Positions 1-18,799 of a DNA stretch of 64,000 nt are shown here, piece by piece; the stretch's first letter is position 1; each line of letters begins with the position of its first letter. The translations under genes were made by a program, and so were the position numbers. The notes below the pieces were generated by a model. It saw only the letters and a list, made by a program, of their open reading frames with translations, was not told the origin of the DNA and made no database searches. Source of the DNA: Pseudarthrobacter sulfonivorans (lineage in GTDB: Bacteria > Actinomycetota > Actinomycetes > Actinomycetales > Micrococcaceae). Location: NCBI RefSeq assembly GCF_024391045.1, contig NZ_JANFCZ010000001.1:1-64000 (forward strand), read 5' to 3'.

Positions 1-1089
1 CTGGAGCTGCGGCTAACCCCGCCAGCCATAAAAGCGTTGTCTGGTTGGGGGACACAAGACGAACCTTCCGCCCTACCTACGTCTGAGTCGACAGAAACTC
101 ATGATGTGGCGGAAGGGGAGGCCGCGGTTTCGACGTCCAGCACGTCTGACATCGTGAAGGCTTCACAGGCTGCAACGGACGGGTATTCGGAAGCTCAGAC
201 AACCGATGCCCCCTTGGGCGAGCAGGCCGAGATTTATTTGGCGCTGCGTTCACTGGTCGAAGAGTATGCAGGCGGTGAGACGTCCCTCGCGGCCGTGGAG
301 ACTGTCCGAGGACTATTGGAAGCCGGTGTTGCAGCTGAGGCATTGAGCACGCGTCTCCTGGCCAAGATCGACCAGAAGTCGGCCGCGCTCGATGCAGCAG
401 CCGTTGAACAGGCGAAGCTGCGCCACCTCATAGACGACCTCGAGCTAGACGCCTGGGACACATGGGAGCAGCTCGAAGCCCAGTATTCGCGAACCCGAAG
501 TGCCCATGACGCAGAACTCAAGCTCCGGGCGATGCTGGCGAAAGCGGGCGGTGACGTCGACTGGACCCAGCTAGATGAAGCTCCACCTGCCGAGCTTTCC
601 GTGCCGCAAAACTTCAACAGCCTGGTGGAAGCCTTTGCTGACCTTCCCTATGTCTTGTACACGGGGGACAAAGACGTCACCGCAGGCCTTGACAACCATG
701 ATGCGGTTGGCCGCTGGTGTGGCATGACATGGAGCATTCTGGTGGCGCTCAACGACTACGCGCGATTCAAGGCCCAAGGGGACGATATCGGGGGCGTGCA
801 GGCTTACCTAGAAAGCCCTCCGCCAGGTGGCCGAACGTACCATCCTGGGCGACACGCTCGAGATGAAAGCGAATCCGTCAAGAACAATCCAAGCTACTCC
901 GTTCCGCGGACCTTGGTCGTCCCAACGATGGTTGATCCTAGTGGCGAGGCGTTTATGGGGGCGCATTTCCGCATAGCAAAGCATGGATTGGTGTCCCCGA
1001 GGCTGCACTACCTTGATGCGACCGCAGTCGCGGGAAAGATCATCGTTGGCTACATCGGGCCACACCTGCCGAACACGCAGACTAACTAG
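1..1089 (+). CDS. Hypothetical protein, 5' end outside the window
   Basis: The reading frame is open from base 1, and the first usable start codon (TTG at 37) has no clear ribosome binding site, so the gene most likely begins upstream. The first 70 residues are acidic and Ser/Thr-rich. Residues about 70-165 are predicted helical and charged, like a coiled coil. The C-terminal half (about 195-350) is a compact domain with aromatic patches around LPYVLYTGD and GRWCGMTWSILVALNDY. I recognise no named family. The gene ends tail to tail with the helD-like gene, overlapping it by 4 bases. It lies at the edge of a group of nuclease and helicase genes, so a defence-associated role is possible but unsupported by any motif. 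Confidence 0.6.
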   Translation: MELRLTPPAIKALSGWGTQDEPSALPTSESTETHDVAEGEAAVSTSSTSDIVKASQAATDGYSEAQTTDAPLGEQAEIYLALRSLVEEYAGGETSLAAVETVRGLLEAGVAAEALSTRLLAKIDQKSAALDAAAVEQAKLRHLIDDLELDAWDTWEQLEAQYSRTRSAHDAELKLRAMLAKAGGDVDWTQLDEAPPAELSVPQNFNSLVEAFADLPYVLYTGDKDVTAGLDNHDAVGRWCGMTWSILVALNDYARFKAQGDDIGGVQAYLESPPPGGRTYHPGRHARDESESVKNNPSYSVPRTLVVPTMVDPSGEAFMGAHFRIAKHGLVSPRLHYLDATAVAGKIIVGYIGPHLPNTQTN

Positions 1090-3443
1090 CTGTCAGGGCC
1101 TGAGCCTTCTATATTGTCCCAAAGGAGATCAACGACTCGCTGCTGAACGCTGGGGCCCATTTCGCGAAGAACCTCAAAGAAATCCCTGGCAATACCCTGA
1201 GCCACATGTTCAAGCATGGGTTTCAGCTCGCCGTTCGAAACCGACACTGCCGGTGATGCCTCGTCGTCAGTGCTGGGAGTATCCTTCTCGGCGCTAGTGC
1301 CCTGATCGCTTTTTGCGGCGTAATTTTCGATGTTTAGCGGCTCGGCCCCAGCTTTAGGTTGGCCGTCGCCGCCTTCTTGGGAGTCCGCAGCTGGGTCTAC
1401 AGCTTCGGTGGCACTGGGGACGATGAAGTCCGCAAGCATTTCCGGAACCCTGTCGGCGCGCAGGATAACGTCGAGATGGTGGACTGTACGCGTCAAAGCA
1501 ATGTAAAGGAGTTTGTCCCCTTGCGCTAGTTCCAGTATTGCTTCTGGCTCGACGACTACCACGGCATCAAACTCAAGACCCTTGGACTCCTCAGGGGAAA
1601 CCAAATTAATGCCCTGCGACAACCCACCATCGGCCGATTCGCTGTACTTGATTCCAGCTGAGCGGAATGCGGTGCGAACGGAAATCATCTGGGCTTCCGC
1701 GACAACCACGCCGACAAACAAGCCTCGTGAACTGTAATCCTTCACCGACATCACTACCGAGTCCATCAACTCGTCTGCGGCCACAACATGCCATCGTGGC
1801 TCTTCTTCGATCTGCCGCGGGAATGCCTCCGGCGCAGCCAGCCCGGGCGCTGCCGTGGCGAGGACTCTTGCTGCGACCGCCAAGACAGGTGCCGGGACGC
1901 GATAACCGATGCTCAGCTCAGCTTCAGTGAAGTTACCTTCGGTGCCAAGGGTCGTTAGGACTTGGTTCCAGTCTTTGCGTGAATAAGCTGAAGTTGCCTG
2001 AGCGATGTCGCCAACCACAGTCATGGACCCGTTCTGGCTGCGCCTGCGGACTGCTCGGAGCTGCATATAGGAGAGGTCCTGTGCTTCATCGACGACAATG
2101 TGCCCATATCGACTGAGCGTGCCACTAATTGCATCTGCCGCACAGTCGATGACGCCCAAGTCCGCCATCGTCCACGGCTCGTCCCCGATTTTCGGGACCG
2201 CTGGCCTGTAAAGAAGCCCAACTTCAGATTCTGTGGCGCCTGCTCGAATGAGCCGATCCTTCGAGCCGTATAACTCCCGAACAAACTGCTGGGGAGAGAG
2301 CGATGGGTACACCCTCTCGGATTGCTCTTCCAATGAAGCTCGGTCGATCAGCGGTGCGGAGTCCCTTCTTCCGGCGTCTATCCTGCCAGCCACGGCAGTT
2401 TGTAGGGCAGCTCGGAATTGAGCCCGACGGCGATTATATAGACCGCTGTTGGCGATACCTGCCAGGAGCTGTTCGACCTCCTCCTTCGAGACGGAGACAG
2501 ACAGTGCAGTATCGGTCCGTTTCACCTCAAGCCCATCGGCTGGGACGCGCGCTCGTCCACCCAGCCCCTTCTGGACGATTGACTCCATTTTTGCAGAGCC
2601 CTTTTTGCGCGCCACGTCTGGCGTGTCGAGGCCCCGCGGAACGAAGTCGCCCGCAAGCAACTGTGCAAGCGACTGTTGAACAACGTCGATATCTCCGAGA
2701 GTGGGCAGTACGCGCCGGATGTACTTTGTGAATGTCGGGTTGGGCCCGACGACCAGTACGTCTTTCGGCTGCAACTCTTCTCGGTGGTTGAACAGGATCC
2801 AGGACACACGATGAAGGGCTACGGCGGTCTTGCCCGTCCCTGGGCCGCCCTGAATAACGAGCAGTTGGTCCTTGGGGGCTCGGATGATCCGGTTTTGTGC
2901 GGCTGTGATGGTCCGCACGATATCTCTCATGAACTCGCCGCGACCACGCCCAAGGTCCTCCAGCAATGGGTCTTGCTCACCGACGAAAGTTCCCGCCGAG
3001 ATATCGTCGGAAAGCTCCTGGAAGATCACGTCGTTGAACGATTCGATTCGGTTAAACTTCGTGGTGAAGATTCGCTTACGCGTAAGCCCTCGTGGTTCTT
3101 CGTGCGTTGCCTCATAGAAGATTTCGCCGACTTGCGACTGCCACGGAGCAACAAGGAGGTCATACTTTTCGTCCCGGATGGCGACGCTGCCAAGGTAGAT
3201 GGTCTCGCCATCCTCCAAGTCCATTCGGGCCGTGGCGACCGCCTCGGAGGGCTCAAGGGTTCTGCGGTCCATCAGCGCCGCGCGCTGACTTGAGCGCTCG
3301 TGGACGTTGCCGCTGACTGTCGAGGAGCCGACGTCGGCGCGCCGCTTGTCGTAAGCCTGCTTTGCTACGTCAAAATAGTCTTGCTCCAGTGCCTTTTCGG
3401 CCTCAAAAGCGTCGTGATCTGTGTCCTGCAACTGTGCAGTCAT
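1086..3443 (-). CDS. HelD/HelR-like UvrD-family ATPase (RNA polymerase-associated helicase)
   Basis: A 785-residue superfamily 1 motor. Walker A GGPGTGKT is at residues 199-206, Walker B/motif II DEAQD at 452-456, a GDIAQ motif III follows, then KGLEFD (motif V) and YIALTR (motif VI) near residues 630-660. The N-terminal helical arm (LEQDYFDVAKQAYDKRR) and the segment GSVAIRDEKYDLLVAPWQ are typical of HelD proteins, which bind RNA polymerase and recycle stalled or inhibited enzyme. Some actinobacterial members (HelR) protect polymerase from rifamycins. The last 110 or so residues are an acidic, low-complexity extension after the helicase core. No rifamycin-associated palindrome was seen upstream, so an antibiotic role is not supported by the promoter. 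The start ATG at 3443 precedes the conserved arm. Confidence 0.88.
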   Translation of the reverse strand: MTAQLQDTDHDAFEAEKALEQDYFDVAKQAYDKRRADVGSSTVSGNVHERSSQRAALMDRRTLEPSEAVATARMDLEDGETIYLGSVAIRDEKYDLLVAPWQSQVGEIFYEATHEEPRGLTRKRIFTTKFNRIESFNDVIFQELSDDISAGTFVGEQDPLLEDLGRGRGEFMRDIVRTITAAQNRIIRAPKDQLLVIQGGPGTGKTAVALHRVSWILFNHREELQPKDVLVVGPNPTFTKYIRRVLPTLGDIDVVQQSLAQLLAGDFVPRGLDTPDVARKKGSAKMESIVQKGLGGRARVPADGLEVKRTDTALSVSVSKEEVEQLLAGIANSGLYNRRRAQFRAALQTAVAGRIDAGRRDSAPLIDRASLEEQSERVYPSLSPQQFVRELYGSKDRLIRAGATESEVGLLYRPAVPKIGDEPWTMADLGVIDCAADAISGTLSRYGHIVVDEAQDLSYMQLRAVRRRSQNGSMTVVGDIAQATSAYSRKDWNQVLTTLGTEGNFTEAELSIGYRVPAPVLAVAARVLATAAPGLAAPEAFPRQIEEEPRWHVVAADELMDSVVMSVKDYSSRGLFVGVVVAEAQMISVRTAFRSAGIKYSESADGGLSQGINLVSPEESKGLEFDAVVVVEPEAILELAQGDKLLYIALTRTVHHLDVILRADRVPEMLADFIVPSATEAVDPAADSQEGGDGQPKAGAEPLNIENYAAKSDQGTSAEKDTPSTDDEASPAVSVSNGELKPMLEHVAQGIARDFFEVLREMGPSVQQRVVDLLWDNIEGSGPDS

Positions 3444-3679
3444 GGTGCCCCCTGTGACTCGTGGAACAAATTAAAGCAGAGGGGAGCGACAACGACGGTA
3501 TATGGCATGCGCGTCTATGCGAAGGTCGACCTTGCGTCGAACGCCACTGAGGTATTGGCGGTCAAGACCGGCTGGATGCCAAATACGAATCGTCACGAGT
3601 ACGCGAAAAATTTCTGCCTTTCCGCTGGTGCAGGGGCTGTACGATTTACAGGCAAGAATCTGGGCAATAGCCTGGTCCA
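3444..3679. promoter_or_regulatory. Divergent intergenic region between helD-like and HNH genes
   Basis: This 236-bp stretch separates two genes transcribed away from each other, so both promoters should lie here. Its base composition is clearly less GC-rich than the flanks of the window. I see no strong palindrome and no rifamycin-associated element. Short frames on either strand look like chance. Confidence 0.4.
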
Positions 3680-4609
3680 ATGTCTAGTAATGCGGGCCGA
3701 GTGCCGGACGATTTCGATACGAGGCTTCGCGCTGCTGCTTTTGCCTGGCTCACGAGCAAAACGCTCCAACGCACAGGGAACCTTACTTACTCCGAAGTCC
3801 AGAGTTTTATTTTTGACGGACGGCCAATTCCGCTCAAGGATCGAGTCAAGGGGATATGGAAACCCGCAAGCTTATCTTCGGCACTTTCGATAACGACGAC
3901 CTATCGTCCGCCGGGGGTTCTTCGGCCCTACGACGATCTAATTCACGAGGATGACGGGCTGCTGAGGTATAAGTGGGAGGGACTCAAACGGGATGAGTCG
4001 ACAAATCGCTCGTTGAGATCGGCGATGCAGTCTGGTGTTCCGTTGATCTGGTTTTTCGGTGTCGGAAAAGGTGTCTTCAAGCCGATTTTCCCGGTTTACG
4101 CCGTCGATGAGGAAGAGGAGAACAGGCAATTCATTATTGACGCTGACCCCGCAGCTATTGCCGATCATGCGGAAGGCATCGCGGAGCAGTTCCTTCGTCG
4201 ATACCTCAAAGTAGAAGCGCGGCACCGACTTTTCCAAGCTGTCTTTCGTGGAACAGTGATGCGCGCTTACAAAGGGCGATGCGCGGTGTGCCGTCTTCAG
4301 CATGGCCAACTGTTGGACGCTGCGCACATCATTCCGGACCGCGACGAGGACGGTATTGCGAGCGTCGTCAACGGGATGGCGCTCTGCAAGATTCATCATG
4401 CAGCGTTCGATGTCGGCATTCTGGGCATTCGGCCGGACCTCGTGGTCCAGATACGGTCAGAACTGATGCGTGAAGTAGATGGCCCGATGCTTCGGCATGG
4501 ACTGCAGGAGATGCACGGGAAGCGAATCGCAGTGCCGAGTGCGAGAGCTGAGAGGCCACGAGAGGACCTTCTTGAGCGCGCTTTCGAGCGGTTCCGGCGG
4601 GCTGGCTAA
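3680..4609 (+). CDS. HNH endonuclease with N-terminal PUA/SRA-like domain (candidate modification-dependent nuclease)
   Basis: The 309-residue protein ends in an HNH (HNH_2-type) module: C201-x2-C204, AHI at 215-217, N231 and CKIHH at 236-240, giving the H-N-H catalytic set plus a zinc-binding cysteine pair. Residues about 35-150 (FIFDGRPIPLKDRVKGIWKP through LIWFFGV) resemble the N-terminal domain of McrA-like HNH proteins, which is thought to read modified bases. The two-domain layout suggests cutting of modified or foreign DNA, as in type IV restriction; this is inference from architecture. Base composition is lower in GC than most of the window, a sign of transfer. The ATG at 3680 lacks a good ribosome binding site; GTG at 3701 is an alternative start. 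Confidence 0.8.
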   Translation: MSSNAGRVPDDFDTRLRAAAFAWLTSKTLQRTGNLTYSEVQSFIFDGRPIPLKDRVKGIWKPASLSSALSITTTYRPPGVLRPYDDLIHEDDGLLRYKWEGLKRDESTNRSLRSAMQSGVPLIWFFGVGKGVFKPIFPVYAVDEEEENRQFIIDADPAAIADHAEGIAEQFLRRYLKVEARHRLFQAVFRGTVMRAYKGRCAVCRLQHGQLLDAAHIIPDRDEDGIASVVNGMALCKIHHAAFDVGILGIRPDLVVQIRSELMREVDGPMLRHGLQEMHGKRIAVPSARAERPREDLLERAFERFRRAG

Positions 4610-4615
4610 AGAGAG

Positions 4616-4930
4616 TCAGAGCTTGTCAATCCAGGTGTCTTCATCTCGATTGTCCCAAGCAGATCCCGAGGTGGGCTTGGACGGGAGGCTTCTCTCTGCG
4701 ATACGCCGGAGTACGAGGCGCACATCCTTTGCCAGAAGGTCTCTTATGGTAGTTACCCGACGGACAGTGCAGCTCTCGATAATTGCTCGCCGCTCGTCCA
4801 TAGAGTCGATACCAGCGGCGGCAAAGGCATCCCGGAGCTGCTGCACCTGGATGTCGCGGATTGGTATGTCGGCGAGGCCTTCAGGCACGTTGTCGGGCTG
4901 GGCAAAGATGTCAAAGGTGCTGTCGTTCAA
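4616..4930 (-). CDS. Small hypothetical protein, helical
   Basis: A 104-residue protein convergent with the HNH gene, 6 bases away. The central part (VQQLRDAFAAAGIDSMDERR, then VRRVTTIRDLLAKDVRLVLRRI) has the look of a small helical domain that recurs at the C-termini of phage single-strand annealing and related proteins, where a recognition helix pair is followed by a Thr-Ile-x-Asp-Leu turn. That likeness is weak. No catalytic motif is visible. Function unknown; its position between two nuclease-type genes is the only clue. Confidence 0.55.
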   Translation of the reverse strand: MNDSTFDIFAQPDNVPEGLADIPIRDIQVQQLRDAFAAAGIDSMDERRAIIESCTVRRVTTIRDLLAKDVRLVLRRIAERSLPSKPTSGSAWDNRDEDTWIDKL

Positions 4931-5124
4931 GGTGCTTCCTCGTCAATTTCTCAGGGCTCTAATCCTCCCATGCACCGGCTACTCCAAGGAAGCAAGGATA
5001 TCGGCGCGTGAACGTCCAGTAGCTCCCGGGCGGGCGTTGACGACTTCAGGATTGGGAGAGCCCTCTCGTGGCATTACTCTGAGCTAAGTTGATGGTCGGC
5101 GATCGCCGAAGATGGGGGAACACA
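4931..5124. promoter_or_regulatory. Divergent promoter region of the 104-aa gene and the DUF4011 helicase gene
   Basis: 194 bp between divergent genes. A purine-rich run GGGGGAA at 5114-5120 sits 4 bases before the ATG at 5125 and supports that start for the large gene. No clear operator was found. Confidence 0.4.
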
Positions 5125-8100
5125 ATGGGGCTTTCCAACCGCGAATACGTCGGACGTGCACTGGAGGCGTTGGCCACGGATCTTGGGTCGTACATTGCGT
5201 CCGTGCTTGCGGGCGTCGCGCCTGGCATCTCCTGGCCCAAGCTGCTGGAACACAAGGACGCAAGCGCGGGCCGAGCACCCACTACGTATTCCGCCTCTGA
5301 TCTGAGCGTGCAACTGCGGGTTATGACGGAACCGTTGGGATCCCTTGGTTATCCATTCAACCTCGCCCACGACGCCCGCAGCTACACATCGGAGCTCCGC
5401 CAGACCCGTAATCTCTGGGCCCATAACGAGGCATTCGACGACGCAGACACCTACCGCGCGCTCGATACTGCTGGGAGGCTAGCCAAGCACTTGGAGCTAA
5501 CCGGAGCAGCGGAAGAACTTGGCACTCTTCTCGACGAATTCAAGACGCGCGGAGAAGTCGTCTTAGTACCCGAAGTCACAGAGACGACCGTTGGAACCGA
5601 ATCTGATCAGCCGGTCGGCCAGCCCGACGCGGAAAACCACAAGCTCCTGCAGCATGCGGTGAGCGTCGAGATCACGGCGGCGGAGTCTCTCAGTTACGCC
5701 ATGGTGCACAACGGCTTCAAGTTCGTGCGGCAGATCAAAATCACCAATCCCGGTGTTGAGATCCGCGGCGCCGTCGTTCGGATAGAGGTCCATTCCAGCG
5801 CCGGCAAGATTTCAGAAGACTTCCAGCAATACGTGGATCTTGCGGCAGGCCAGGCCATGGTCCTGGACGACGTCGACGTGCACGTGTCCGCCACGACCAT
5901 GTATGAACTCAACGACAAACAGCCAGGGCGCCTACTGGTAACGATCGAGTCCGCTGCCGCCGGCGCGGAAGCCGCCGAAATCGGCAAGGGAGAAGCGAGT
6001 CTGCAGCTCCTCCCGGCCCAGCTCTGGATCGCAGGCAAAGGACTCGTTTCCTACGAATTCCTGGCAGCATTTGTCCAGCCACATCACCCTGCTGTTGCCC
6101 AGCTTGTCTCCGAAGCATCCGATGCTCTAGGAAAAGCCACGGGCCGGAGCAGCCTGGACGGCTACACAGAAGGCGCAGAGCGCGTGGACGACATCGTCTT
6201 CGCTCTCGCCCAGGCAGCCAGCCAACGCGACATCCGCTACAGCATGCCACCCGCCAGCTGGGGCTTGCAGGGCCAGCAGGTACGCACACCAGCCCAGGTT
6301 CTTGAGGGCCGCCTAGGCACCTGTCTCGACACCACAGTCGTGATGGCAGCAGCGCTGGAGTTCTGCGGAATCGCGCCGCTCCTCTGGGTCGTGGACGGTC
6401 ACGCCTTCCTCGGATACTGGCGAGAAGACATGACCTTGCCGACGGCAGCATCGGAGGACGCCCTCGAACTCGTGAGTCTCGTCCAAAGAGGCTTCATTGG
6501 CTTGGTCGAGACCACCGTGCTTACCGGCAGCCACCCGATCACGCCAGCACTGCTGCGGAGCAGCCCCGAATCTGACTACATCGAAACAGGCCACGACAAG
6601 ATCCAAGCCGTCACCGACGTCCGGCGGGCGCGATTGGACGGAATTTATCCTCTACCTGCGCGGACAACCAACGAGTCCGGGGCGCCCGTAGTCACCAACT
6701 ACGTCCCGGAAGCCAAAGCCGCGCCAGTAGCACCCGAAAAACACGGCCGGGGAGCGGCGCCCGGCCGTTCGACGTCGAGCATTCCGCCCCGGGTTACCCA
6801 ATGGAAGAACGCCCTCCTGGATCTCAGCCTCCGCAACCGGCTGATCAACTTCACGGACACCGCCCGTTTCCCGCTCGCAGTCCCCAGCTCGTGGATGGGC
6901 CGGTTTGAAGACCTCATCAACAACGGCACTCCCATCAGCCTGCTCCCGGCCAACCAGCTCAGCGCCATCCACCAGGAACGCGGGATCCGGTTCGGCAGGG
7001 ACCTTCCCCAGGACGAGCTGATTGCGTTGCTGAGCTCGAAGAAGGCCGTGTTTGCCGAGGTGACTGAGGACGCCTACAACGCCAAGATGCGTGGCCTGGC
7101 GTACAAAGCCAAAACCCAGCTGGAGGAGACCGGCGCCAACAACCTTTACCTGGCCCTCGGCAGCCTCCTCTGGGAACTCGATGGCCGCACACTGCGCTCG
7201 CCGCTGGTGCTGGTACCCGTGAACCTGACCTCCGCCGGAAAGCAGGGCCTCTATCGGGTCACCCTTGACGAGACGGGTCAGTCAACGCCGAATTACTGCC
7301 TGCTGGAGAAGCTGTCCCAAGCGCACGGGCTCAAGATTCCCGGGCTGGCCGAACCTGCCGAAGACGGCTCGGGCATTGATCTCGACGCCGCTTTCCACGC
7401 CGTCAGGGAAGCCGTCTCCGCCAAGGGCCTCGCTTTCCGGGTGGAGAACACGGCGGACCTGTCGATGCTGCAGTTCGCAAAGTTCCGGCTCTGGAAAGAC
7501 CTGGACGAGAGCTGGGAGCAGTTCGGGAAGAACCGCCTCGTGGACCACCTCATCAGCAGCCCGACCGAGCTCTTCCAGGATCCCGTGAAAGCAGCTGAGG
7601 AGCCTGACCTCGACGCCCTCGCCGCGACATGCCCGATCCCCGCAGACTCATCCCAGCTGCAGGCCGTTGCTTCCGCCGTCGCCGGCCGGACGTTCGTGCT
7701 CGAAGGACCTCCGGGGACAGGCAAATCCCAGACCATCACCAACCTGCTGACGCGGGCCATCGTCGAAGGTAAACGGGTCCTCTTCGTTGCTGAAAAACGG
7801 GCCGCCCTTGATGTCGTCCAGAAGCGTCTCGAAGAGGTGGGCATGGGTCCCTTCTCCCTTGACCTGCATGACAAGGGAAGCAAACCAGCCATGGTCCGCG
7901 CCCAGATCAAGCAGGCACTGGAGCTTAGTCTCAGTTCGGATCAGCAGCGTCTGGACACCGCTTCTACAGACCTGGCTGCTGCACGCCGGGGACTCGTTCG
8001 CTACGCCAGCCACCTTCACGAGGAGAACGGCGCTCAGCTGTCGCTGTACAGCGCGCGCACTAAAGCGCTGACTTTCGATCCCAGCGACCCTATGCTCCCG

Positions 8101-11100
8101 CTGACTACGCAGTTCACGTCCACCGCCGACGGCACTGTCCTCGAGCCGGTCCGGGCGCTGCTTCGGGAACTGCCCGAATTCACCGACAGGGCCCGTCCAG
8201 CAAAGAACCATCCGTGGCGCTTCCTCGCGACTCCACCGGATGCAGCCGACGCCCTTCGGATTACGGATGCGGGCCGCCGCATCGATGAAGCGCTCGACGC
8301 CGTCCGTTCAGTTGATGAGTTACTTTCAGTTGCGGTGTCGGCGACCTCCTCCTCGGAGCTTCGCGTCCTTGCTGCCCTGCTTGAAGACCGCAGTGTCCCG
8401 GTTGGGACACTGGACGACGTTAGGTCCGGTCAGTGGTCAGCCGGAGCGCAGCATCTTGAAAACTTGGTGGCAGCATTCGCGGCTGTGAATCATCCCGGTC
8501 TGGACAAAGTCCGGCCGGAGGCCATGGATCTGCCTCTTCCGGAGATTCTCGGACGCGCCGAGCAGGCCGCGGCCAGCGGCTTCTTCGGGCGCAAGAAAAG
8601 GCTGCTTGCGGTGGCCGCCGAGCTCGACGCCGTCATGCACCCGGGGGCCGGGATCCGGCCCAAGGAGCTGGTACCACTGCTGCAGAATCTCGCAAATACG
8701 CAGCATCAGATCCGTGGTCTTCAAACCGAGGCACATGGCATCCCCGGTGTGGCCGTCCCGGAAGGCTGGAACCCTCTTACTGAGCCTGCCAAGGAGGCCC
8801 TCAACCGCAGGCTCGGCTGGTTGCGGTGGGCAGCGCAGGCTGTCCAGCCAAGCGCCGGCAACGAGGCTCCGTTCCAGACCCGGCTGCGCGCGTTCCTTGA
8901 AAGCGGCCGACCGGTACATGAAAATGTGATCGCGTGGCTGTACGAACTGGCCGCTTCGTGGGATGCACTCACCGAAATTCCTGCCGTGGACGCTACTGAG
9001 CTGGAGCGGTGGACGGGAGCCACTCCGTTCTTGGAAGTCTGGGGGGACACTCGTGGAGCACGTGCCCTCGACGCCACAGGATCCCACAGCCTGGACCGGT
9101 GGCTTGAGCTGCTGCGCCACGTAGAGCCGCTGAGGTCTGTAGGGCTTCCGGACGTCCGGTCGTCGATCCTCAATGGTGAACTCGAAGCCGATGACGCGGC
9201 AACGGCCTTTGAACGGGGACTCGCCGAGAGCTCCCTGGAAGAACGGAAGCTGGCGACCGGTCTGCAGGATTTCGATGCCAGTTCCCACGAACGCGCCATC
9301 GACCGCTTCACGACGCGAGCCACGCTGGTCCGTGAGCTTCTGAAACGAAACTTGGCCGCCGGCGTCGTAAATTCCCGGCGCGTTTCCTCTTCGTCTACAT
9401 CTGGACGCATGGGGGAGCTGCAGCGCCAGCTGACCAGGCAACGCGGTGGCCTCACCGTCCGCAAGCTGATGGAGGGCTATGCGGACCTGATCACACAGAT
9501 CATGCCCTGCACGCTGGTCAGCCCTGATTCGGTGGCGCGGTTCTTCCCGGCGCGAGCGGATCTCTTCGACATCGTGGTCTTCGACGAGGCCTCCCAGATC
9601 CGTGTGGCTGATGCCGTGGGTGCCATGGGGCGCGGCGCGTCAGTGGTAGTGGTCGGTGACAGCAAGCAGATGCCGCCAACGTCGTTTGCTGAATCTTCCA
9701 GCGATTCCTTGGACGAGGTGGAGAGCGAGATCACCGCAGTCGAGGACATGGAGTCGATTCTCTCCGAGTGTGTCGAGGCGCGGGTCCCGCGGCAGTGGCT
9801 TTCCTGGCACTACCGCAGCCAGGATGAGTCCCTAATTGCGTTCAGCAACCAGCAGTACTACGACAGCAAGCTGTCATCGTTCCCGGGCCCGTCGCACGGC
9901 GCACCCAATCCGGGGATCCATGGTCACGGCGTGAACTTTGTCCGGGTCAACGGCCAGTTCCATCGCTCGGGCCCCTCCAAAGTCCTGCGCACCAACCCTG
10001 TGGAGGCGGCTGCCGTCGTCGAGGAGGTGCGGAAGCACTTCAACGGTGCCAGCGACTCGCCGTCAGTCGGCGTGGTCACGTTCAACCTGCAGCAGCGGGC
10101 GTTGATTGAGGGGCTCCTGCGAGACACGGACGATGCCCGGATTATCAAAGCCCTCGATGAAGATCCCGAAGGATTGTTCGTCAAGAACCTGGAGAATGTC
10201 CAGGGTGACGAGCGGGACGTCATCCTCTTCTCGACGGGCTTCAGCAAGAACGACAAGGGCTACCTTCCGCTGAACTTTGGACCACTGAACCGTGCCGGGG
10301 GAGAGCGCCGGCTCAACGTGGCCGTGACACGTGCACGCCGGCAGGTCATCGTGTTCTCCAGCTTCAGCCCATCAGAGCTGCGGGCCGAGGAGACGAGCTC
10401 CGTGGGCATCAAGCACCTGCGTTCCTACCTGGATCTCGCCGAGCAGGGGACGGGCGCCCTGCCCTATGACGGACGCCGTAGCGCTGCCGTGGACCTTCAC
10501 CGGGAGGAGATCGCGGACGCACTGCGGGACCGGGGCTTTGTGGTGGCCACTGACGTGGGATTGTCGGACTTCAAAGTGGATATCAGCGTTGCCACACAGG
10601 ACGCGCCCGGTCGGCAGTTGATGGCCGTTCTGCTGGACAGCCCTGCCTGGGCGGCCCGGCGCACGGCTGGAGACCGGGATGGTCTTCCCGGTGACGTCCT
10701 GACTCGGATGATGCGCTGGCCGGCTGTGGAGCGGGTTTGGCTGCCGGCGTGGCTTAGCGACCGGAACGTTGTGCTGGACAAGCTGGAGGCTGCTTTTACG
10801 AAGGCCAGTACAGCCGCTGCGGGGCCCGATGAAGAACCAGCTCTCTCCGGGGGAGACGAAGACTTGAACGACGAGCCGGACGCTTTCATGCCGGGCGTCA
10901 ATCCTCTTCCGCCAGCCTTCACTTCCGCGTCAGCTGATACGCCTGCCTCGTTGCTGTCTACGGCGGGTGGAGGATCCAGGCAAGCGACGGTCATCGTCGA
11001 GTCGGGCCGCCTCAAATACAAGCCATGGGCTGTCCGTCGCCTTGGAGGCAGGGACGTGCTGGACGCGCTGCCTTCCCGGCGTTCCGTGTTTGCCGTTCGT

Positions 11101-11559
11101 GAAGCCCTCCAAGCGATCGTTGAAGCGGAAGGCCCTGTCCACCAGGAGCGTCTTGCCAAACTTGCCTGTGCCGCGTTCAACCTGAACAAGATGAACCCGC
11201 AACGCGCAAACTCAGTCCTGGATGTGGTGGATGAGTCCGTTCACCGCAGCGATGCGGACGGGTTCATCTGGGACGCCTCAATAGACCCCAAAGAGTGGAC
11301 TGAATTCCGGGTGAACGGAGAGGAAATCGACCGGAAGCCCGAACAAATCAGTGTGGTCGAGCTACGCAATGCGATGGTCCACGTCGTTGGCCGTTCTGGG
11401 GGTATCTCCATCCGCGACCTGCACCGAGAGTCTCTTAAGTTGTTCGGTAAGACCCGAAGGACTCCGGCGGTGACGGCTCGGCTTAACGAGGGGCTGCAGT
11501 ATGGCTTGGATACGGAACGCCTTGAATTGCGTGGCGAGGTGGTGCATCTTGCGGGGTAG
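5125..11559 (+). CDS. Multidomain HEPN / transglutaminase-like / DUF4011 / SF1 helicase / REase-like protein (Hhe-like defence protein)
   Basis: A 2144-residue protein. Domains in order: HEPN (Swt1-type) about 1-130 with the RNase motif R95-x4-H100; an Ig-like domain about 190-300; a transglutaminase-like fold with C400 in LGTCLDTT and H426 in VDGHAFLGYW; DUF4011 from about 550 (WKNALLDLSLRNRLINF); an SF1 helicase with Walker A GPPGTGKS 861-868, Walker B D1487-E1488 (FDEASQI), WHYRSQDE from 1561, QGDERD from 1693 and VTRAR near 1734-1738; a MTES_1575/Vsr-type nuclease domain from about 1790; and DUF3320 near the end. Proteins with DUF4011, helicase and Vsr-like nuclease are known as the Hhe anti-phage type. 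I prefer ATG 5125 (GGGGGAA just before it, HEPN begins at once) over ATG 5089. Single-protein system or core of a two-gene unit with the next gene: inference. Confidence 0.9.
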   Translation: MGLSNREYVGRALEALATDLGSYIASVLAGVAPGISWPKLLEHKDASAGRAPTTYSASDLSVQLRVMTEPLGSLGYPFNLAHDARSYTSELRQTRNLWAHNEAFDDADTYRALDTAGRLAKHLELTGAAEELGTLLDEFKTRGEVVLVPEVTETTVGTESDQPVGQPDAENHKLLQHAVSVEITAAESLSYAMVHNGFKFVRQIKITNPGVEIRGAVVRIEVHSSAGKISEDFQQYVDLAAGQAMVLDDVDVHVSATTMYELNDKQPGRLLVTIESAAAGAEAAEIGKGEASLQLLPAQLWIAGKGLVSYEFLAAFVQPHHPAVAQLVSEASDALGKATGRSSLDGYTEGAERVDDIVFALAQAASQRDIRYSMPPASWGLQGQQVRTPAQVLEGRLGTCLDTTVVMAAALEFCGIAPLLWVVDGHAFLGYWREDMTLPTAASEDALELVSLVQRGFIGLVETTVLTGSHPITPALLRSSPESDYIETGHDKIQAVTDVRRARLDGIYPLPARTTNESGAPVVTNYVPEAKAAPVAPEKHGRGAAPGRSTSSIPPRVTQWKNALLDLSLRNRLINFTDTARFPLAVPSSWMGRFEDLINNGTPISLLPANQLSAIHQERGIRFGRDLPQDELIALLSSKKAVFAEVTEDAYNAKMRGLAYKAKTQLEETGANNLYLALGSLLWELDGRTLRSPLVLVPVNLTSAGKQGLYRVTLDETGQSTPNYCLLEKLSQAHGLKIPGLAEPAEDGSGIDLDAAFHAVREAVSAKGLAFRVENTADLSMLQFAKFRLWKDLDESWEQFGKNRLVDHLISSPTELFQDPVKAAEEPDLDALAATCPIPADSSQLQAVASAVAGRTFVLEGPPGTGKSQTITNLLTRAIVEGKRVLFVAEKRAALDVVQKRLEEVGMGPFSLDLHDKGSKPAMVRAQIKQALELSLSSDQQRLDTASTDLAAARRGLVRYASHLHEENGAQLSLYSARTKALTFDPSDPMLPLTTQFTSTADGTVLEPVRALLRELPEFTDRARPAKNHPWRFLATPPDAADALRITDAGRRIDEALDAVRSVDELLSVAVSATSSSELRVLAALLEDRSVPVGTLDDVRSGQWSAGAQHLENLVAAFAAVNHPGLDKVRPEAMDLPLPEILGRAEQAAASGFFGRKKRLLAVAAELDAVMHPGAGIRPKELVPLLQNLANTQHQIRGLQTEAHGIPGVAVPEGWNPLTEPAKEALNRRLGWLRWAAQAVQPSAGNEAPFQTRLRAFLESGRPVHENVIAWLYELAASWDALTEIPAVDATELERWTGATPFLEVWGDTRGARALDATGSHSLDRWLELLRHVEPLRSVGLPDVRSSILNGELEADDAATAFERGLAESSLEERKLATGLQDFDASSHERAIDRFTTRATLVRELLKRNLAAGVVNSRRVSSSSTSGRMGELQRQLTRQRGGLTVRKLMEGYADLITQIMPCTLVSPDSVARFFPARADLFDIVVFDEASQIRVADAVGAMGRGASVVVVGDSKQMPPTSFAESSSDSLDEVESEITAVEDMESILSECVEARVPRQWLSWHYRSQDESLIAFSNQQYYDSKLSSFPGPSHGAPNPGIHGHGVNFVRVNGQFHRSGPSKVLRTNPVEAAAVVEEVRKHFNGASDSPSVGVVTFNLQQRALIEGLLRDTDDARIIKALDEDPEGLFVKNLENVQGDERDVILFSTGFSKNDKGYLPLNFGPLNRAGGERRLNVAVTRARRQVIVFSSFSPSELRAEETSSVGIKHLRSYLDLAEQGTGALPYDGRRSAAVDLHREEIADALRDRGFVVATDVGLSDFKVDISVATQDAPGRQLMAVLLDSPAWAARRTAGDRDGLPGDVLTRMMRWPAVERVWLPAWLSDRNVVLDKLEAAFTKASTAAAGPDEEPALSGGDEDLNDEPDAFMPGVNPLPPAFTSASADTPASLLSTAGGGSRQATVIVESGRLKYKPWAVRRLGGRDVLDALPSRRSVFAVREALQAIVEAEGPVHQERLAKLACAAFNLNKMNPQRANSVLDVVDESVHRSDADGFIWDASIDPKEWTEFRVNGEEIDRKPEQISVVELRNAMVHVVGRSGGISIRDLHRESLKLFGKTRRTPAVTARLNEGLQYGLDTERLELRGEVVHLAG

Positions 11560-11608
11560 CTCAAGCGAGCAGCGCCGGCTTTCTCACCGCGCACGAGAGT
11601 AGAGGCCG

Positions 11609-12412
11609 ATGGGCTGGCGGGTAGCGGGCGTTGTCATAGCCTGGATTGCGTTCAGTATTGCCTTTCAGCAACCTCCGCTGGCCGTCCCCTTGGCATGTTT
11701 GGCCGGTTGGCTCTTCGGCCGCGGGCGAGAGCAGAGGGTATCGACGGCTCAACCGCCCGTCCCAGAGGATATCCAACCCCTGGAAAGAGCGCAGTCAGCG
11801 CCGGCCACGCCTGGCCCAGTGCCGGTGTCAACAGCAGCTGTGCCGACGGCAAGGTCAACAGCCGTGGAGGCGCCGAAGACGGCAGAATCCCCGAAGGCTC
11901 CGCGGCAGCTGGACAAGCCTGTACCGCAAAAACGGCAGCCGCGTGCCTCGGATGGGCCGGCACGGCCGAGTGCCCCGGCTATCGTGACGAGAACCTCGAC
12001 CAATGACTCTGGCACCAGACTCCTGGACCCGTATGTCGGAACTGAACGCCGCTGGACTCGGAGTGAACAGGTGCAGCTCCTGGACCACTATGAGCGGGGA
12101 CGAGACATACCGGGGATTGCCGCAGAAATGCGGATAGATCAACGAGAAGTCGCCATCCGGCTCATTCGATTGCTGTTGTCTCCTTCGGGAAACATCGCAG
12201 ACGAAAGCGGTTGTCCCCGGCACGGCAAGAAATACGACACAGACGAAGTCCTTAAAATCGAAGATCTTCACAAAGGCGGCCTCCGGCTCCGCTCCATTGC
12301 GAATGAGGTCGAGCGAACGCAGCTCGGAGTAGGGTGGAAGCTATTAAGCCTCCATGTGCCGAGCGTCCCAGCAAGTTTGCGAGGGGACCTGCGCTCCGAC
12401 AACATGACCTGA
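11609..12412 (+). CDS. Membrane-anchored protein with C-terminal HTH/SANT-like repeats
   Basis: The 267-residue protein starts 49 bases after the large helicase gene on the same strand, with AGAGG just before the ATG, so cotranscription is likely. Residues about 5-37 form one or two hydrophobic segments, followed by a long Pro/Ala/Thr linker (about 45-130). The C-terminal part holds two similar helical units: RRWTRSEQVQLLDHYERG...IPGIAAEMRID and KYDTDEVLKIEDLHKGG...LRSIANEVER. This pattern, W-T plus a helix and then an IA-containing recognition helix, is like Myb/SANT or sigma-region-4 HTH repeats that are common beside actinobacterial helicases. It may tether DNA or the helicase to the membrane; that is speculative. 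Confidence 0.65.
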   Translation: MGWRVAGVVIAWIAFSIAFQQPPLAVPLACLAGWLFGRGREQRVSTAQPPVPEDIQPLERAQSAPATPGPVPVSTAAVPTARSTAVEAPKTAESPKAPRQLDKPVPQKRQPRASDGPARPSAPAIVTRTSTNDSGTRLLDPYVGTERRWTRSEQVQLLDHYERGRDIPGIAAEMRIDQREVAIRLIRLLLSPSGNIADESGCPRHGKKYDTDEVLKIEDLHKGGLRLRSIANEVERTQLGVGWKLLSLHVPSVPASLRGDLRSDNMT

Positions 12413-12489
12413 ATTTGAAGGCGTGGCCGGGCATGGTCCGCCTGCGTTTTACACACGCAGGCGTTACGTGGACGCGACGGTGTCCGATG

Positions 12490-12738
12490 TTATTTCTTCC
12501 GCGCCTTCTTTATGATTTCCGCTGCTTGACGGTAGGCCGCTTTGGCCTCAGGGCTTGTGGCTGCACGATACATCCTCTTACCGTCTTCGAATAGTTTCTT
12601 GGCTTTAGCCTGCGAATCCGGGTCTTTGGCCAGGGAGTAAAGCTTGGCCCCACCGGCTTTTGCTTTGCCCTTTGCGTCTATCAATAACGCTGCAGCTTTG
12701 TTTACTTTTCCGGCCACCGCTGACTCCTTACCCTCCAT
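12490..12738 (-). CDS. Small Ala/Lys-rich hypothetical protein
   Basis: About 82 residues from the ATG at 12738; an in-frame ATG at 12777 would add 13 residues and would leave only 9 bases to the upstream gene. The protein is basic and rich in Ala and Lys (AKGKAKAGGAKLYSLAKD, EAKAAYRQAAEIIKKARKK) and is predicted almost wholly helical. No family is recognised. It follows the 426-residue gene on the same strand, so the two probably form an operon. Confidence 0.5.
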   Translation of the reverse strand: MEGKESAVAGKVNKAAALLIDAKGKAKAGGAKLYSLAKDPDSQAKAKKLFEDGKRMYRAATSPEAKAAYRQAAEIIKKARKK

Positions 12739-12786
12739 TGTTCTTTTGCGTGAGACTAGTCCTGCATGAGCATGCATCAGCCGCGT

Positions 12787-14067
12787 TTAGCTGGCGTCAC
12801 TGTTCGGCGAATCACTTGTGACGACTTCGTCACGGCGACGCTCTTCGGGCTCCACCTTTACCGAGCTGCTGGCTCGCTGCGCCTCAATTTGGCCAGCAAC
12901 GCGGATAACCGCATCCCCACCAGCCTTTGCAATGCCCACCGGCACCGCTCGGGCTCCCGAGGAGACCACATTGCCAGTGGTTTTGGCGAAGTCGGTCAAG
13001 GACTTGCGCCAGGACTCCCGTTCCACTTCGCCGGTGGTCAGGCCGTCGAGACCGTAGATCTGAGCGAAGACCCCAATCAACTCCACAGCGCGCTCCGCGG
13101 AATCCAGCAGCATCTTGCTTTTCTGCGGACTACGGACCCGATTGAAGTCACTCACATTTGCTGCTGCCGTCAAGGAATCAACCAGCTCCTGAACCCTGGC
13201 AGTGACAGCAGTGGATCGATTGGCTGCAGCTGATCGGATCGCAGCAGCATGCGCTTCAACTGCATCGGGATCGTGCTGGCGTACATGCACAAGTTCGAGG
13301 GTCTCGAGCCGCTGCTGATTTGCCTGGGCCGCGGCAAGGATAACGAGCCAAGAGCGCAGCTCTTTGGCGGCAATGGTTTCCGCAGCAGAGGCCTTTTCTG
13401 CCAGCGACTTGGCGTTGAGCGTCTGGGTCATGGTATTGATCTGGGCCAGAGCATGAGAGCTTGCCTGTGCCAGAGACGTCGCGTGGCCGGCAATCTGAGA
13501 CCAAGCCGTTTCGCTGATTCGTCCTGTCGCCTCATAAAGCTCGAACGCGCGGGTCAGAACCACCGTTAGGCCCTGCACGTCGCCCAGAGCCTTGGTTCTG
13601 TTGTCGTTCAGCAGCCGATCGAGCTTGACGTCCATGGCTTCCGCCAGATCTTCCAACCGGGCAACTGCGCTCCTCAACGCCATCGTCGCCGTCAACGTGG
13701 CGAGGTTCGCCATAGCCACCGGATTGATACCGCCCGTGGTGAACTGCGCAAACGAATCAATGCGGCCCATGGAACCGCGAAAGACTCCGCTGAACAAGCC
13801 ATCTTGGGACAGATTGAACTGGGCAAGTTCTGCAAGCCTACGGGTGGACTCCGGAGTGAGCTGCACCCAGCTACCATCTATGGCGGCCGCTACTGCGGCA
13901 ATCCCCGTTGCTTGGGCCAGGAGGTCAGCGGATCCTTGCCCCAACCGATCTGCATGCGTGCTGTCAATGTCCAACTTTGCCATCAAAGATTTAACCAGGC
14001 CAGGGTCTCCTGTCAGGACGGCTGCGTCGCCGGAGACGTGGATGCCAACTTCAGTCGTTTCGCTCAT
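12787..14067 (-). CDS. Hypothetical all-helical protein
   Basis: 426 residues from ATG 14067 (MSETTEVGIHVSGDAAVL); the frame is open for 36 codons further up, but that part lacks coding character. The N-terminal 60 residues look like a small alpha/beta unit ending in ADLLAQATGIAAVAAAIDGS. The remainder is long amphipathic helices (LATLTATMALRSAVARLEDL, AMDVKLDRLLNDN, AAAQANQQRLETLELVHVRQ) that suggest coiled-coil oligomerisation. The C-terminal tail is charged. There is no Shine-Dalgarno sequence; a CAGAAT about ten bases upstream could serve a leaderless transcript. I do not recognise the family. Confidence 0.6.
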   Translation of the reverse strand: MSETTEVGIHVSGDAAVLTGDPGLVKSLMAKLDIDSTHADRLGQGSADLLAQATGIAAVAAAIDGSWVQLTPESTRRLAELAQFNLSQDGLFSGVFRGSMGRIDSFAQFTTGGINPVAMANLATLTATMALRSAVARLEDLAEAMDVKLDRLLNDNRTKALGDVQGLTVVLTRAFELYEATGRISETAWSQIAGHATSLAQASSHALAQINTMTQTLNAKSLAEKASAAETIAAKELRSWLVILAAAQANQQRLETLELVHVRQHDPDAVEAHAAAIRSAAANRSTAVTARVQELVDSLTAAANVSDFNRVRSPQKSKMLLDSAERAVELIGVFAQIYGLDGLTTGEVERESWRKSLTDFAKTTGNVVSSGARAVPVGIAKAGGDAVIRVAGQIEAQRASSSVKVEPEERRRDEVVTSDSPNSDAS

Positions 14068-14383
14068 GTGAGCATTCTGGCACAGCGAGTAACCGACGAC
14101 GGCACGCCAGTAACGAGGGGGAGAACGGCGTCCACGTGAACGCGCTGGCGAAGCATTTTGCGATCCGCCTGGCACCGCGGATCCGTCCTGTTGACAAAAC
14201 CGTTAGTGCGTTTTGAACAGGGACTTGGGTTAGCCGCCACTGACGGCCCCGTAACCTCGGCGCACACACGCCATTCGAGTCGCGCCCGGGCGCTACACTG
14301 AGGCTGAATTAGCCCACCTGGCACCTGCCGAACGGGTCAGCAATCGGAACGGCTTTATGCGTTTCATGGGGGAGAAGGAGCCG
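14068..14383. promoter_or_regulatory. Divergent promoter region (316 bp)
   Basis: It lies between two divergent genes. A TTGACA hexamer is at 14191-14196 with a weak TGAACA 17 bases on. A TACACT hexamer at 14293-14298 is a possible -10 for the DUF4230 gene. GGAG at 14371-14374 is 9 bases from ATG 14384 and fixes that start. Nothing else was seen. Confidence 0.4.
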
Positions 14384-15001
14384 ATGATCGGCAAACTCAC
14401 TAGGCGTATCGCTTTGGTTGTGGTTGGTGCGCTCATTGCGGTTCTGGCCGTTGCTGGTGTCAATATGAACGGGTTCAACCCCTTCCAATCAATTCGGACC
14501 GACCGGAGTCAGCCCGCGCTGCTGAAATCGATCAAGGACGTAAGTCAATACCACGCCGCCATTGGCAATTTTGAAGTGGTGGTTGACGTCGAGGACGGCG
14601 CCGGGTGGATGCCTGACATCATCGCCGGACGCCGGACACTGTTTGTCGCGGCGGGCACCGTCAACACCTACGTCGATCTCTCCGGCCTCGCCGACAAAGA
14701 CCTGATGCTGTCCCCGGACGGGAAGACGGTGACGGTGCGGCTGCCCGAGGCGCAGCTCGACAGGCCCAATCTCGACCACGACCGGTCATATGTCTTCAGC
14801 CAAGCCCGTGGCGTGCTGGACCAGATCGCTGACGCGATCGAGGTGCCTCAACAAGCACAGTTCTTCAAACTCGCTGAAACCAAGATCACCACCGCGGCGG
14901 AGGAGTCGGAGCTTCGAAAGCAGGCCCAGGACAACACACAAGCGATGCTGACCGGCATGTTCAGCCGGCTCGGACTTCAGGTCACGTTCCTCGACAATTA
15001 A
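14384..15001 (+). CDS. DUF4230 domain-containing membrane-anchored protein
   Basis: 205 residues. An N-terminal signal anchor (about 8-27, ALVVVGALIAVLAVAGV-like) is followed by an extracytoplasmic DUF4230 domain: LLKSIKDVSQYHAAIGNFEVVV, then a beta-rich stretch with GTVNTYVDLSGL and VTVRLPEAQL, then a helical C-terminus. The arrangement 'basic pair, YHAA.G...VVV, L..G....VDL' is typical for DUF4230. The domain's function is not known; it is widespread in Gram-positive bacteria on the outer face of the membrane. Start chosen at ATG 14384 because of the GGAGAAGGAG run just upstream; ATG 14357 and 14366 are in frame but less well placed. Confidence 0.75.
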   Translation: MIGKLTRRIALVVVGALIAVLAVAGVNMNGFNPFQSIRTDRSQPALLKSIKDVSQYHAAIGNFEVVVDVEDGAGWMPDIIAGRRTLFVAAGTVNTYVDLSGLADKDLMLSPDGKTVTVRLPEAQLDRPNLDHDRSYVFSQARGVLDQIADAIEVPQQAQFFKLAETKITTAAEESELRKQAQDNTQAMLTGMFSRLGLQVTFLDN

Positions 15002-15279
15002 GCGGGCTGGGCCAACTGATCATGGGGTTGTGTTCCGAATCTCGATACGTCAATTGCCGCAGGCTACAAGTTTCGCCGTAGTGCCCCATACGGCTTGGCC
15101 CACGCCCAACAGTTGAACGTTGGCGTGGGGGCACTTACTGGTCCCGCAGTGTCGTTCGGCGGAACCGCTGAGCGCCCGATTCCGGTCTCGTGTGTATCTA
15201 TGGCGGGCCCGGCGTCGCTCGGCATACGGCTCGTCACAGTCGGTCACGACCGAGGCGCTGGCTGAGGCGGTGTCTAGAT
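15002..15279. other. Intergenic region between convergent genes, nothing recognised
   Basis: 278 bp between the 3' ends of the DUF4230 and GIY-YIG genes. I found no tRNA-like fold, no long hairpin with a T-run and no credible reading frame. Confidence 0.4.
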
Positions 15280-16197
15280 TTATTTCCCCTCGGGCAGCGC
15301 GATTCCCTGTTCCTGCCACTGACCGTAAGTCATGCCCGTTGAAGGGATACGCCAACTGGTCCGGCCGTTGGTGGTCCGTCCCGCAATGACAGCACCCGCC
15401 GCACTGGGACTTTTGAAAACATGCGTCTTCCCGAAACGGGCTGCGGGCCCATCAGCAATGAGTACGCCCGCGGCGATCAGTTTTTGGTGAAGCTTGTCGT
15501 AGGCGTGATTGGTCCCGACCCACGCGGGCCGAGCTGCCGATCCTTCAAGAACGGCGAATTCGCCGTCAGTCTCTTGAGCATAAGCAGTAATTCCGAGGTT
15601 GGTAAGCGTCATCTCAAAGACCGGGGAAGTGCTTCCCGTGCCTGCCGGGCCACTGGCAGCTTCGCTTGGGGTGGGCAAGCTGCGTAATGCGTCGACACCA
15701 AGAACCGGAAGAATGATCTTGGCCTGATCGATGAAGTACTCCATGTCCGACCTGTCGGCTTCGGGGAGCGGAAGGGGAGGCGGTGCAGTCCCGTTGGTGA
15801 CAGTGGTGCGGCCTGCGGTCTTGGCGATGTTGATGAAGCGGCTTTCCAGGTATCTGGCGTGCGCTTTTGTGAGGTTAGCGTCCTTACTGGTAAGGACGAT
15901 GGCGCGGTTCCAGAAATCCTTGCCGCCCTTGTCTTCGGGTTTATGGTGCATCTTTAGGCGTTCGCCGACGTTGTCGCCTTCGCCGATGTAGATGAGCGTT
16001 TCATCTGGATCCTCCACACCATATCCGACCAGGACGTAGATGCCCGTGCGTTGGACTTCTTCACGGTGAAGCAGCTCAGCAAGGTCAGACCGGCTGGCCG
16101 CGATGACGTGCCCAGTCCAGTTCATGATCTCTGCCGTCAGCATTCCCCCTGGAGTGCCGTCGACCAGAAACAATCGAACCTGCTTACCAACAGCCAT
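15280..16197 (-). CDS. GIY-YIG nuclease family protein with DUF4357
   Basis: 305 residues. The GIY-YIG signature is split as TGIYVLVGYG (about residues 51-60) and LIYIGEGDNVGERLKMH (about 67-84), with a downstream helix carrying AHARYLESRFI, in which the Glu is at the expected metal-binding place. The C-terminal part (about 205-300, FAVLEGSAARPAW...LIAAGVLI...KSPSAAGAVIAGRTTNGRTSWRI) matches DUF4357, which often accompanies nucleases in restriction and defence genes. The N-terminal 50 residues (QVRLFLVDGTPGGMLTAEI) are a third small domain usual in this family. It probably cuts or binds nucleic acid. GC content is lower than the window average, in keeping with a transferred segment. Confidence 0.85.
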   Translation of the reverse strand: MAVGKQVRLFLVDGTPGGMLTAEIMNWTGHVIAASRSDLAELLHREEVQRTGIYVLVGYGVEDPDETLIYIGEGDNVGERLKMHHKPEDKGGKDFWNRAIVLTSKDANLTKAHARYLESRFINIAKTAGRTTVTNGTAPPPLPLPEADRSDMEYFIDQAKIILPVLGVDALRSLPTPSEAASGPAGTGSTSPVFEMTLTNLGITAYAQETDGEFAVLEGSAARPAWVGTNHAYDKLHQKLIAAGVLIADGPAARFGKTHVFKSPSAAGAVIAGRTTNGRTSWRIPSTGMTYGQWQEQGIALPEGK

Positions 16198-16446
16198 GAG
16201 TCTCGTCCTCTGAACGTGTGCTTAGGCTCATCCAGCCACGAGCCGAAATGAGTCTAGGGCATTTCCAGCTCTTGTCTCGGCAACGCTTGGAGCGCGATAT
16301 TCCTGGATTCCCATGAAGGCGTCGGAGTTCCCTAATCCGGTTTGCCGTTCACCTGTGTTTCCCAGACGCCACGCAGGTACGACGACTTAACGATCAACAA
16401 ACGGCACTATGCAGTATGGATAGGGACATGATCAGGTCGTTTCCCG

Positions 16447-17178: not shown

Positions 17179-17232
17179 GCGCTCCTACCCGCATCGCCGC
17201 TTCTGTCACTATGAGGTAGACCACACAGGCCC

Positions 17233-17268
17233 AAGGGGTGCTTTTTTTCAGTAGGTGGAGCACCCCTT
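17233..17268. terminator. Inverted repeat after the DUF3841 gene
   Basis: Perfect 10-bp arms AAGGGGTGCT (17233-17242) and AGCACCCCTT (17259-17268) around a 16-base loop that opens with a T-run. Position after a stop codon suits a terminator; because it also lies about 100 bases before the next gene, an operator is possible. Confidence 0.5.
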
Positions 17269-17365
17269 TCCACTCAACCCTTGACAGCCAAATCACCTTC
17301 TGAGACTGTTAATGCCAGATGGTCAGACCAACGGACCAAGTAACCACTACAAGGAAGTAGCAGCT

Positions 17366-18727: not shown

Positions 18728-18799
18728 GACCATCAGGCCGAGAACTACGATTGAGGGAGTCCGGTGAAGGCCGGGATGAACAATCGAAAGGGAACCGGC

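Follow-up and report, generated by a model that had tools for sequence, protein, structure and literature searches.

What can a single polypeptide do that appears to combine a HEPN RNase domain, a transglutaminase-like (TGL) region, a superfamily 1 (SF1) helicase and a Vsr-like nuclease? The question is raised by a gene at 5125–11559 (+) of a 64,000-nucleotide window from Pseudarthrobacter sulfonivorans (NCBI RefSeq assembly GCF_024391045.1, contig NZ_JANFCZ010000001.1, positions 1 to 64,000 of the forward strand). A preliminary description, made from the letters of this DNA, had suggested that three effector chemistries (RNA cleavage, proteolysis or crosslinking, and DNA cleavage) could be gated by one helicase sensor. 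Our analysis indicates that the architecture has, for the most part, been known since 2013, and that the protein is an intact new member of a catalogued anti-phage family, ProA. The reading that we prefer, with a probability of about 0.5, is that of a stand-alone ProA-type chassis of helicase and Vsr nuclease which would restrict DNA, backed by an attack of the TGL and HEPN parts that would lead to growth arrest.

Translation of 5125–11559 gave a single uninterrupted frame of 2144 residues with no stop, as expected for the intact polypeptide that had been described. A TTG at 5089 offers an alternative start, which would lengthen the protein by 12 residues. The ATG at 5125 was kept as the start because it is preceded by GGGGGA at 5114–5119 and because most relatives from the same genus align from residue 1. 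Taking the frame, this GGGGGA and the family score given below together, we annotated the whole gene as encoding a ProA-family (MTES_1575-type) protein.

When residues 190–2111 were compared with the NCBIfam model NF058533 ('anti-phage protein ProA'), the score was 1722.9 bits against a cut-off of 1500, and the match covered the whole model (1–1903). The model starts after the HEPN domain, which is thus an extra part of this lineage. The preliminary description had cited Hhe as the known example of such defence proteins. With the Hhe model NF042953 (DUF4011 anti-phage protein), only 607.6 of the 2000 bits demanded were reached; the match is partial, the helicase and nuclease end being common to both, and the nearest family is ProA. 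The PADLOC candidate PDC-S37 was matched at 915.9 bits. The anti-phage role proposed earlier follows from membership of ProA, the equivalog cut-off having been passed, and we assign it as a predicted role on that basis.

The same domain order had been catalogued before. Anantharaman et al. 2013 (PMC3710099) list a Swt1-type HEPN fusion as 'Transglutaminase, SF-I Helicase, Vsr REase and 2 wHTH (MTES_1575), active', where REase stands for restriction endonuclease and wHTH for winged helix-turn-helix. The passages of that paper on giant HEPN proteins describe them as lacking modification genes, predict a defence independent of modification, in which the wHTH would recognize invading DNA and HEPN would kill the cell should the DNase be unsuccessful, and mention proteolysis by the transglutaminase domain as a possible further activity. 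The domain list of the MTES_1575 and Brachybacterium proteins is matched here by a Swt1-type HEPN, a TGL region between HEPN and helicase, and an SF-I helicase with a Vsr-type REase, and probably also by the two wHTH. This likeness is one of description, MTES_1575 itself being unaligned, and the 2013 passages are without family-wide conservation of the TGL site or replacement of HEPN by an exonuclease. No methyltransferase family, as a sign of a linked DNA-modification gene, was found in the ten neighbouring frames scanned (window 37–19540). To judge from these passages, the idea of three effectors is in substance the 2013 proposal. The earlier statement that the role of the TGL part had not been worked out holds in so far as that role is still unproven in the literature found, but a role in proteolysis had already been proposed in PMC3710099. 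In the open-licence PMC literature searched, no further paper on the TGL part was recognized, nor any account of ProA in phage defence, which is no proof of absence. PMC9122589, the best-ranked match, was considered as the source of ProA and rejected, as proA is there only an E. coli genotype marker.

The TGL region (residues 300–530; 6022–6714) carries Q384, C400, H426 and E462. Against Pfam Transglut_core (PF01841) it scored 12.7–14.6 bits, below the gathering cut-off of 23, and hence it is called transglutaminase-like here and was not filed under PF01841. A profile comparison by hhalign, in which 47 of 53 loci were used, matched residues 300–530 to 47 true Transglut_core proteins with a probability of 93 (E 3e-7), over an alignment that spans the Cys half only (62 columns), the His half resting on conservation. 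Seven control regions (HEPN, the beta-sandwich, DUF4011, both motor halves, the REase and the wHTH) gave probabilities of 0.5 or less. Profile comparison of the kind suggested as a check thus supports a TGL-like fold in this region. Among 31 N-terminal regions searched with Pfam, Transglut_core was matched in 19 (best E 0.0018) and DUF553, which is also transglutaminase-like, in 16 (best E 0.00027); HEPN_Swt1 was matched in 22, and every remaining family in at most two. A Transglut_core search of genomes matched the ProA frame weakly in 6 of 8 (E 0.017 to 0.66), which is soft evidence, as unrelated frames of those genomes reach like E-values. On these profiles, residues 300–530 are a predicted divergent transglutaminase-like (thiol-protease-like) domain.

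Conservation was assessed in 67 distinct relatives, chosen by similarity and by having the TGL region, a choice that by its similarity component inflates the conservation of the core. Left out were broken or partial copies (L006, L013, L026, L032, L033, L034, L039, L040, L056, L060, L061, L077 and L082), the TGL-less locus L080, the near-copies L044, L046, L047 and L219, Hhe-like and other DUF4011 helicase loci, loci of which only the N-terminus was read (L153, L154, L157, L160, L174, L177, L179 and L180), and the plasmid matches. It may be noted that the ProA frame is interrupted, through decay or assembly error, in L006, L010, L013, L026, L032 and L033, five of which belong to Arthrobacter assemblies and the sixth to one of Mycobacterium. 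K867 of Walker A, D1487, D1838 and D1850 were each present in 67 of the 67 relatives, and D1819 in 65, with Glu in the other two; by this measure, the motor and nuclease residues appear essentially universal.

In the TGL region, Q384 was kept in 63 of the 67 relatives, C400 in 62 and H426 in 63, and the three were retained together in 62. At the position of E462, which we take as the third TGL residue, 60 relatives have Glu, and the others carry Asp (4), Gln (2) or Asn (1). Four relatives (L081, L202, L203 and L213) have Q384, C400 and H426 all replaced and keep the motor and nuclease residues; a fifth (L204) has lost the TGL Cys alone. On a quick tree, which contains several long branches, the Cys losses are five separate changes. 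The joint loss of Q384, C400 and H426 from an otherwise retained domain is as would be expected of an active site. A TGL-less frame of 1583 residues starting at the DUF4011 region (L080/L220, G249:C108; L220 at 3941–8743) scored 1566.3 bits against the ProA model, above the cut-off, and none of the reading frames in the 10.5 kb around L080 showed the TGL Cys motif. This frame rules out the TGL as a constant part of ProA, and the module appears to be usual but not indispensable in the family.

The HEPN domain varies in its occurrence. Pfam returned HEPN_Swt1 (PF18731) at residues 11–122 (5155–5490) with an E-value of 3.2e-20, above its own cut-off, in line with the fold expected at the N-terminus. 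The motif, R95-NLWA-H100 (R95-x4-H100), fits R-x4-6-H, and R95 and H100, like C400 and H426, stand in the translation where they had been placed. Of the 67 TGL-bearing relatives, 32 have a fused HEPN whose motif is intact, 6 have a fused HEPN that has lost the catalytic Arg (one change on the quick tree), and 26 have no HEPN. The domain was counted only where it is itself present, as the raw counts (R 41, H 39) include stray upstream letters that do not belong to a coding frame; in L081 and L055 it was recognized by eye, and about 130 unassigned N-terminal residues of L210 were counted as no module. Absence was checked by tblastn at 20 loci with flanks of up to 8 kb or of 1.5 kb, a search that divergent HEPNs could escape. 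In L213, HEPN_Swt1 (E 0.009) and DUF4145 (E 0.0005) both fell below their cut-offs, and in L010 (Arthrobacter echini P9) the HEPN frame is closed by an in-frame stop ahead of the core.

One relative carries a different nuclease at this position. L205 (G850:C69; 1931–9229, minus strand) is a ProA-family frame of 2433 residues (1773.7–1774.6 bits, above the cut-off), in which a DEDDh exonuclease (RNase_T E 5e-22, PRK06063-type), with weak matches to TerB and BRCT behind it, replaces HEPN. The N-terminus of L206 is a degenerate exonuclease look-alike by eye only, with no Pfam match. The N-terminal slot has undergone at least 10 changes on the quick tree, 4–5 of which are forced by the starred (well-supported) branches alone. 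In view of these changes and of the replacement in L205, HEPN is an optional, exchangeable accessory in the ProA family. A second Swt1-type HEPN occurs in the same genome (L001, G000:C19), fused to a DUF499 ATPase.

The remaining core was clear in Pfam searches. DUF4011 (residues 564–730; 6814–7314; E 1.9e-30), AAA_11 (841–943; 7645–7953), which is the first half of the SF1 motor and contains the Walker A sequence GPPGTGKS at 861–868, and AAA_12 (1544–1745; 9754–10359), the second half, were all above their cut-offs; a DEAS motif (D1487) sits upstream of the latter. The Vsr-like REase MTES_1575 (1794–1890; 10504–10794; D1819, D1838 and D1850) reached 44.6 bits, its cut-off being 38.2. The SF1 helicase and the C-terminal Vsr/MTES_1575 nuclease of the preliminary description are thus confirmed, and its inventory of HEPN, TGL, helicase and nuclease was right by Pfam and profile–profile comparison together. 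The motor is a predicted SF1 helicase of the IGHMBP2/Upf1-like type and is joined to a Vsr-like nuclease, the chemistry of both being ascribed from what is known of these families.

AlphaFold2 models of the two ends added two parts beyond that inventory, a beta-sandwich and a C-terminal winged-helix region. The model of residues 1–560 (mean predicted local distance difference test score, pLDDT, 83.9) shows a helical HEPN, a linker, an Ig-like sandwich and an alpha/beta TGL region. The linker (about residues 143–176; 5551–5652), of low confidence (pLDDT below 50 at 144–176), stands exactly between HEPN and the core. The sandwich (177–297; 5653–6015) was aligned by VIA-align to those of protein 4.2, factor XIII and beta-galactosidase with Z of about 10–11. 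Its likeness to factor XIII and protein 4.2 was not used as a clue, since beta-galactosidases score alike; as modelled, it is a common fold that says little on function. In the model of residues 1742–2144 (mean pLDDT 78.4), a Vsr-like fold is followed by winged-helix-like units. The REase model matched 3r3p, the catalytic domain of I-Bth0305I, with a VIA Z of 10.8 across all 97 of its residues. The C-terminal helical region (about 1976–2142; 11050–11550) has two helix–strand units, matches to SelB and the cullin WHB at Z below 8, and a DUF3320 match at 1991–2025 just under its own cut-off; it is probably a pair of winged helices. In a fold search with the 1–560 model, neither HEPN nor the TGL core was among the matches listed, which the beta-sandwich dominated. 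When profiles were run against solved structures, residues 1–560 gave only weak matches to the ribosomal protein eL13 (E of 0.03 or more), residues 1742–2144 gave none, and the whole protein matched SMUBP-2 only, via the helicase (E 0.001).

How these parts might work together was then weighed. We prefer a fixed chassis because the residues of the motor and of the DNase show essentially no variation, HEPN is optional and the TGL-less L080 passes the ProA cut-off; a chassis with accessory effectors would fit better than three equal arms. According to this reading, the C-terminal part and the helicase would be loaded onto phage DNA as it invades or replicates, translocation would be powered by ATP hydrolysis, and the Vsr-like nuclease would cut the DNA. 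Once activated, the protein would also attack a protein target through the TGL, acting as a thiol hydrolase, and RNA through HEPN, acting as an RNase, and this attack on protein and RNA would add growth arrest behind DNA restriction, as a back-up. Several observations weigh against it. In most relatives Glu stands in place of Asp as the third TGL residue, 5 of the 67 relatives have lost catalytic residues of the TGL while retaining motor and nuclease, and the TGL is not required for the family call; the name of NF058533 rests on work that was not located, and the ProA model omits HEPN; the selection of the sample by similarity flatters the core. L213, moreover, has a dead TGL site but retains the HEPN motif, which shows that HEPN and TGL are not strictly coupled. 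A rule that an intact HEPN is always paired with an intact TGL site had held over 50 rows and was then contradicted by L213. The TGL Cys is lost in 1 of the 32 rows with intact HEPN, 2 of the 6 with a broken motif and 2 of the 29 others, numbers too few and from rows too related for a test. On account of L080, we lowered the probability of the preferred reading from 0.55 to 0.5 and slightly raised that of a TGL that is not an enzyme.

This last alternative, in which the TGL is regulatory or structural, the helicase and Vsr nuclease defend alone and HEPN is an occasional abortive-infection add-on, is rather unlikely. The five rows that lack the Cys and retain the motor and nuclease residues speak for it, as does the family score of L080. 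Hna provides a precedent for a lone helicase–nuclease, being a single polypeptide that causes abortive infection (PMC13381803); the abstract of that paper does not mention TGL or HEPN, and the two are likened by description only. The Gln, Cys and His of the TGL, however, are kept together in 62 relatives and lost together in four, as for a catalytic set, and the five Cys losses are separate changes on the quick tree. A further possibility is that the TGL acts in cis: a helicase that senses phage DNA would trigger a TGL protease to cut the linker at about 143–176 and free the N-terminal nuclease as a toxin. The position of the linker, the different nucleases carried in the N-terminal slot and the retention of the TGL Cys in 31 of the 32 rows with intact HEPN would all suit such a mechanism. 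We consider it doubtful, as the Cys is retained too in 24 of the 26 rows with no N-terminal module to free, L213 has kept its HEPN motif though its TGL is dead, and relatives differ in the length and sequence of the linker as judged by eye, no search aimed at a conserved linker motif having been made. Still more speculative is a modular platform, in which a helicase–Vsr DNA sensor would be joined to a thiol protease whose action would switch on or set free an interchangeable nuclease at the N-terminus, HEPN here and the exonuclease in L205.

A housekeeping helicase–nuclease of DNA repair or recombination, with no part in defence, was weighed as well. SF1/Upf1-like motors and Vsr-like folds are found in repair enzymes too. 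This explanation is nevertheless highly improbable given the patchy presence of the protein, in contrast to another helicase of DUF4011 type, scoring below the cut-off, that is met with throughout the genus; the existence of several broken copies, the defence-type genes nearby and the ProA equivalog call argue in the same direction. The ProA cut-off was exceeded in 10 of 99 relatives and in 10 of 396 genomes sampled from the phylum, the genome under study being included in both. Relatives were found in 318 of 72,556 plasmid records, 228 of them from Klebsiella, and in 1 of 50,697 phage records; among the 30 plasmid matches listed, none starts before residue 170, so none aligns to this HEPN. 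A separate helicase frame of about 1391 residues (G000:C12:31994–35401) is present in the same genome below the ProA cut-off, and similar matches recur across the genus.

The surroundings of the gene look like a defence island. The first 17 kb of the window have a guanine-plus-cytosine content of about 56–64%, lower than most of the rest, and the neighbours include a UvrD-type helicase, which we take to be HelD-like, an HNH nuclease and the PDC-S14 candidate defence gene. Upstream lies a trio of genes (37–1089, 1086–3443 and 3680–4609) for a weak NsnC match, the UvrD-type helicase and the HNH nuclease, and the trio keeps its order beside ProA in L009 and L017. The PDC-S14 candidate of PADLOC (407 bits) is a DUF4357 protein at 15280–16197 (−). 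A gene for 462 residues without a Pfam match lies at 12787–14175 (−), with relatives anywhere in 19 of 98 related genomes. Its family is the commonest neighbour: of 41 loci, the window among them, 8 have a member close to ProA. As it also occurs in genomes without a ProA above the cut-off, an obligatory partner gene is unsupported.

The locus thus extends, by one intact protein, a family in which a protease-like module is predicted. A useful sidelight falls on a swappable N-terminal nuclease and on a widely kept, putative protease-like site. If the modular platform were true, it would be a one-polypeptide counterpart of protease-activated abortive infection. The natural variants, with a dead TGL, no TGL, a broken HEPN motif or an exonuclease in its place, offer ready-made comparisons of which arm works. 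If the TGL site acts in defence, a single polypeptide would attack DNA, RNA and protein.

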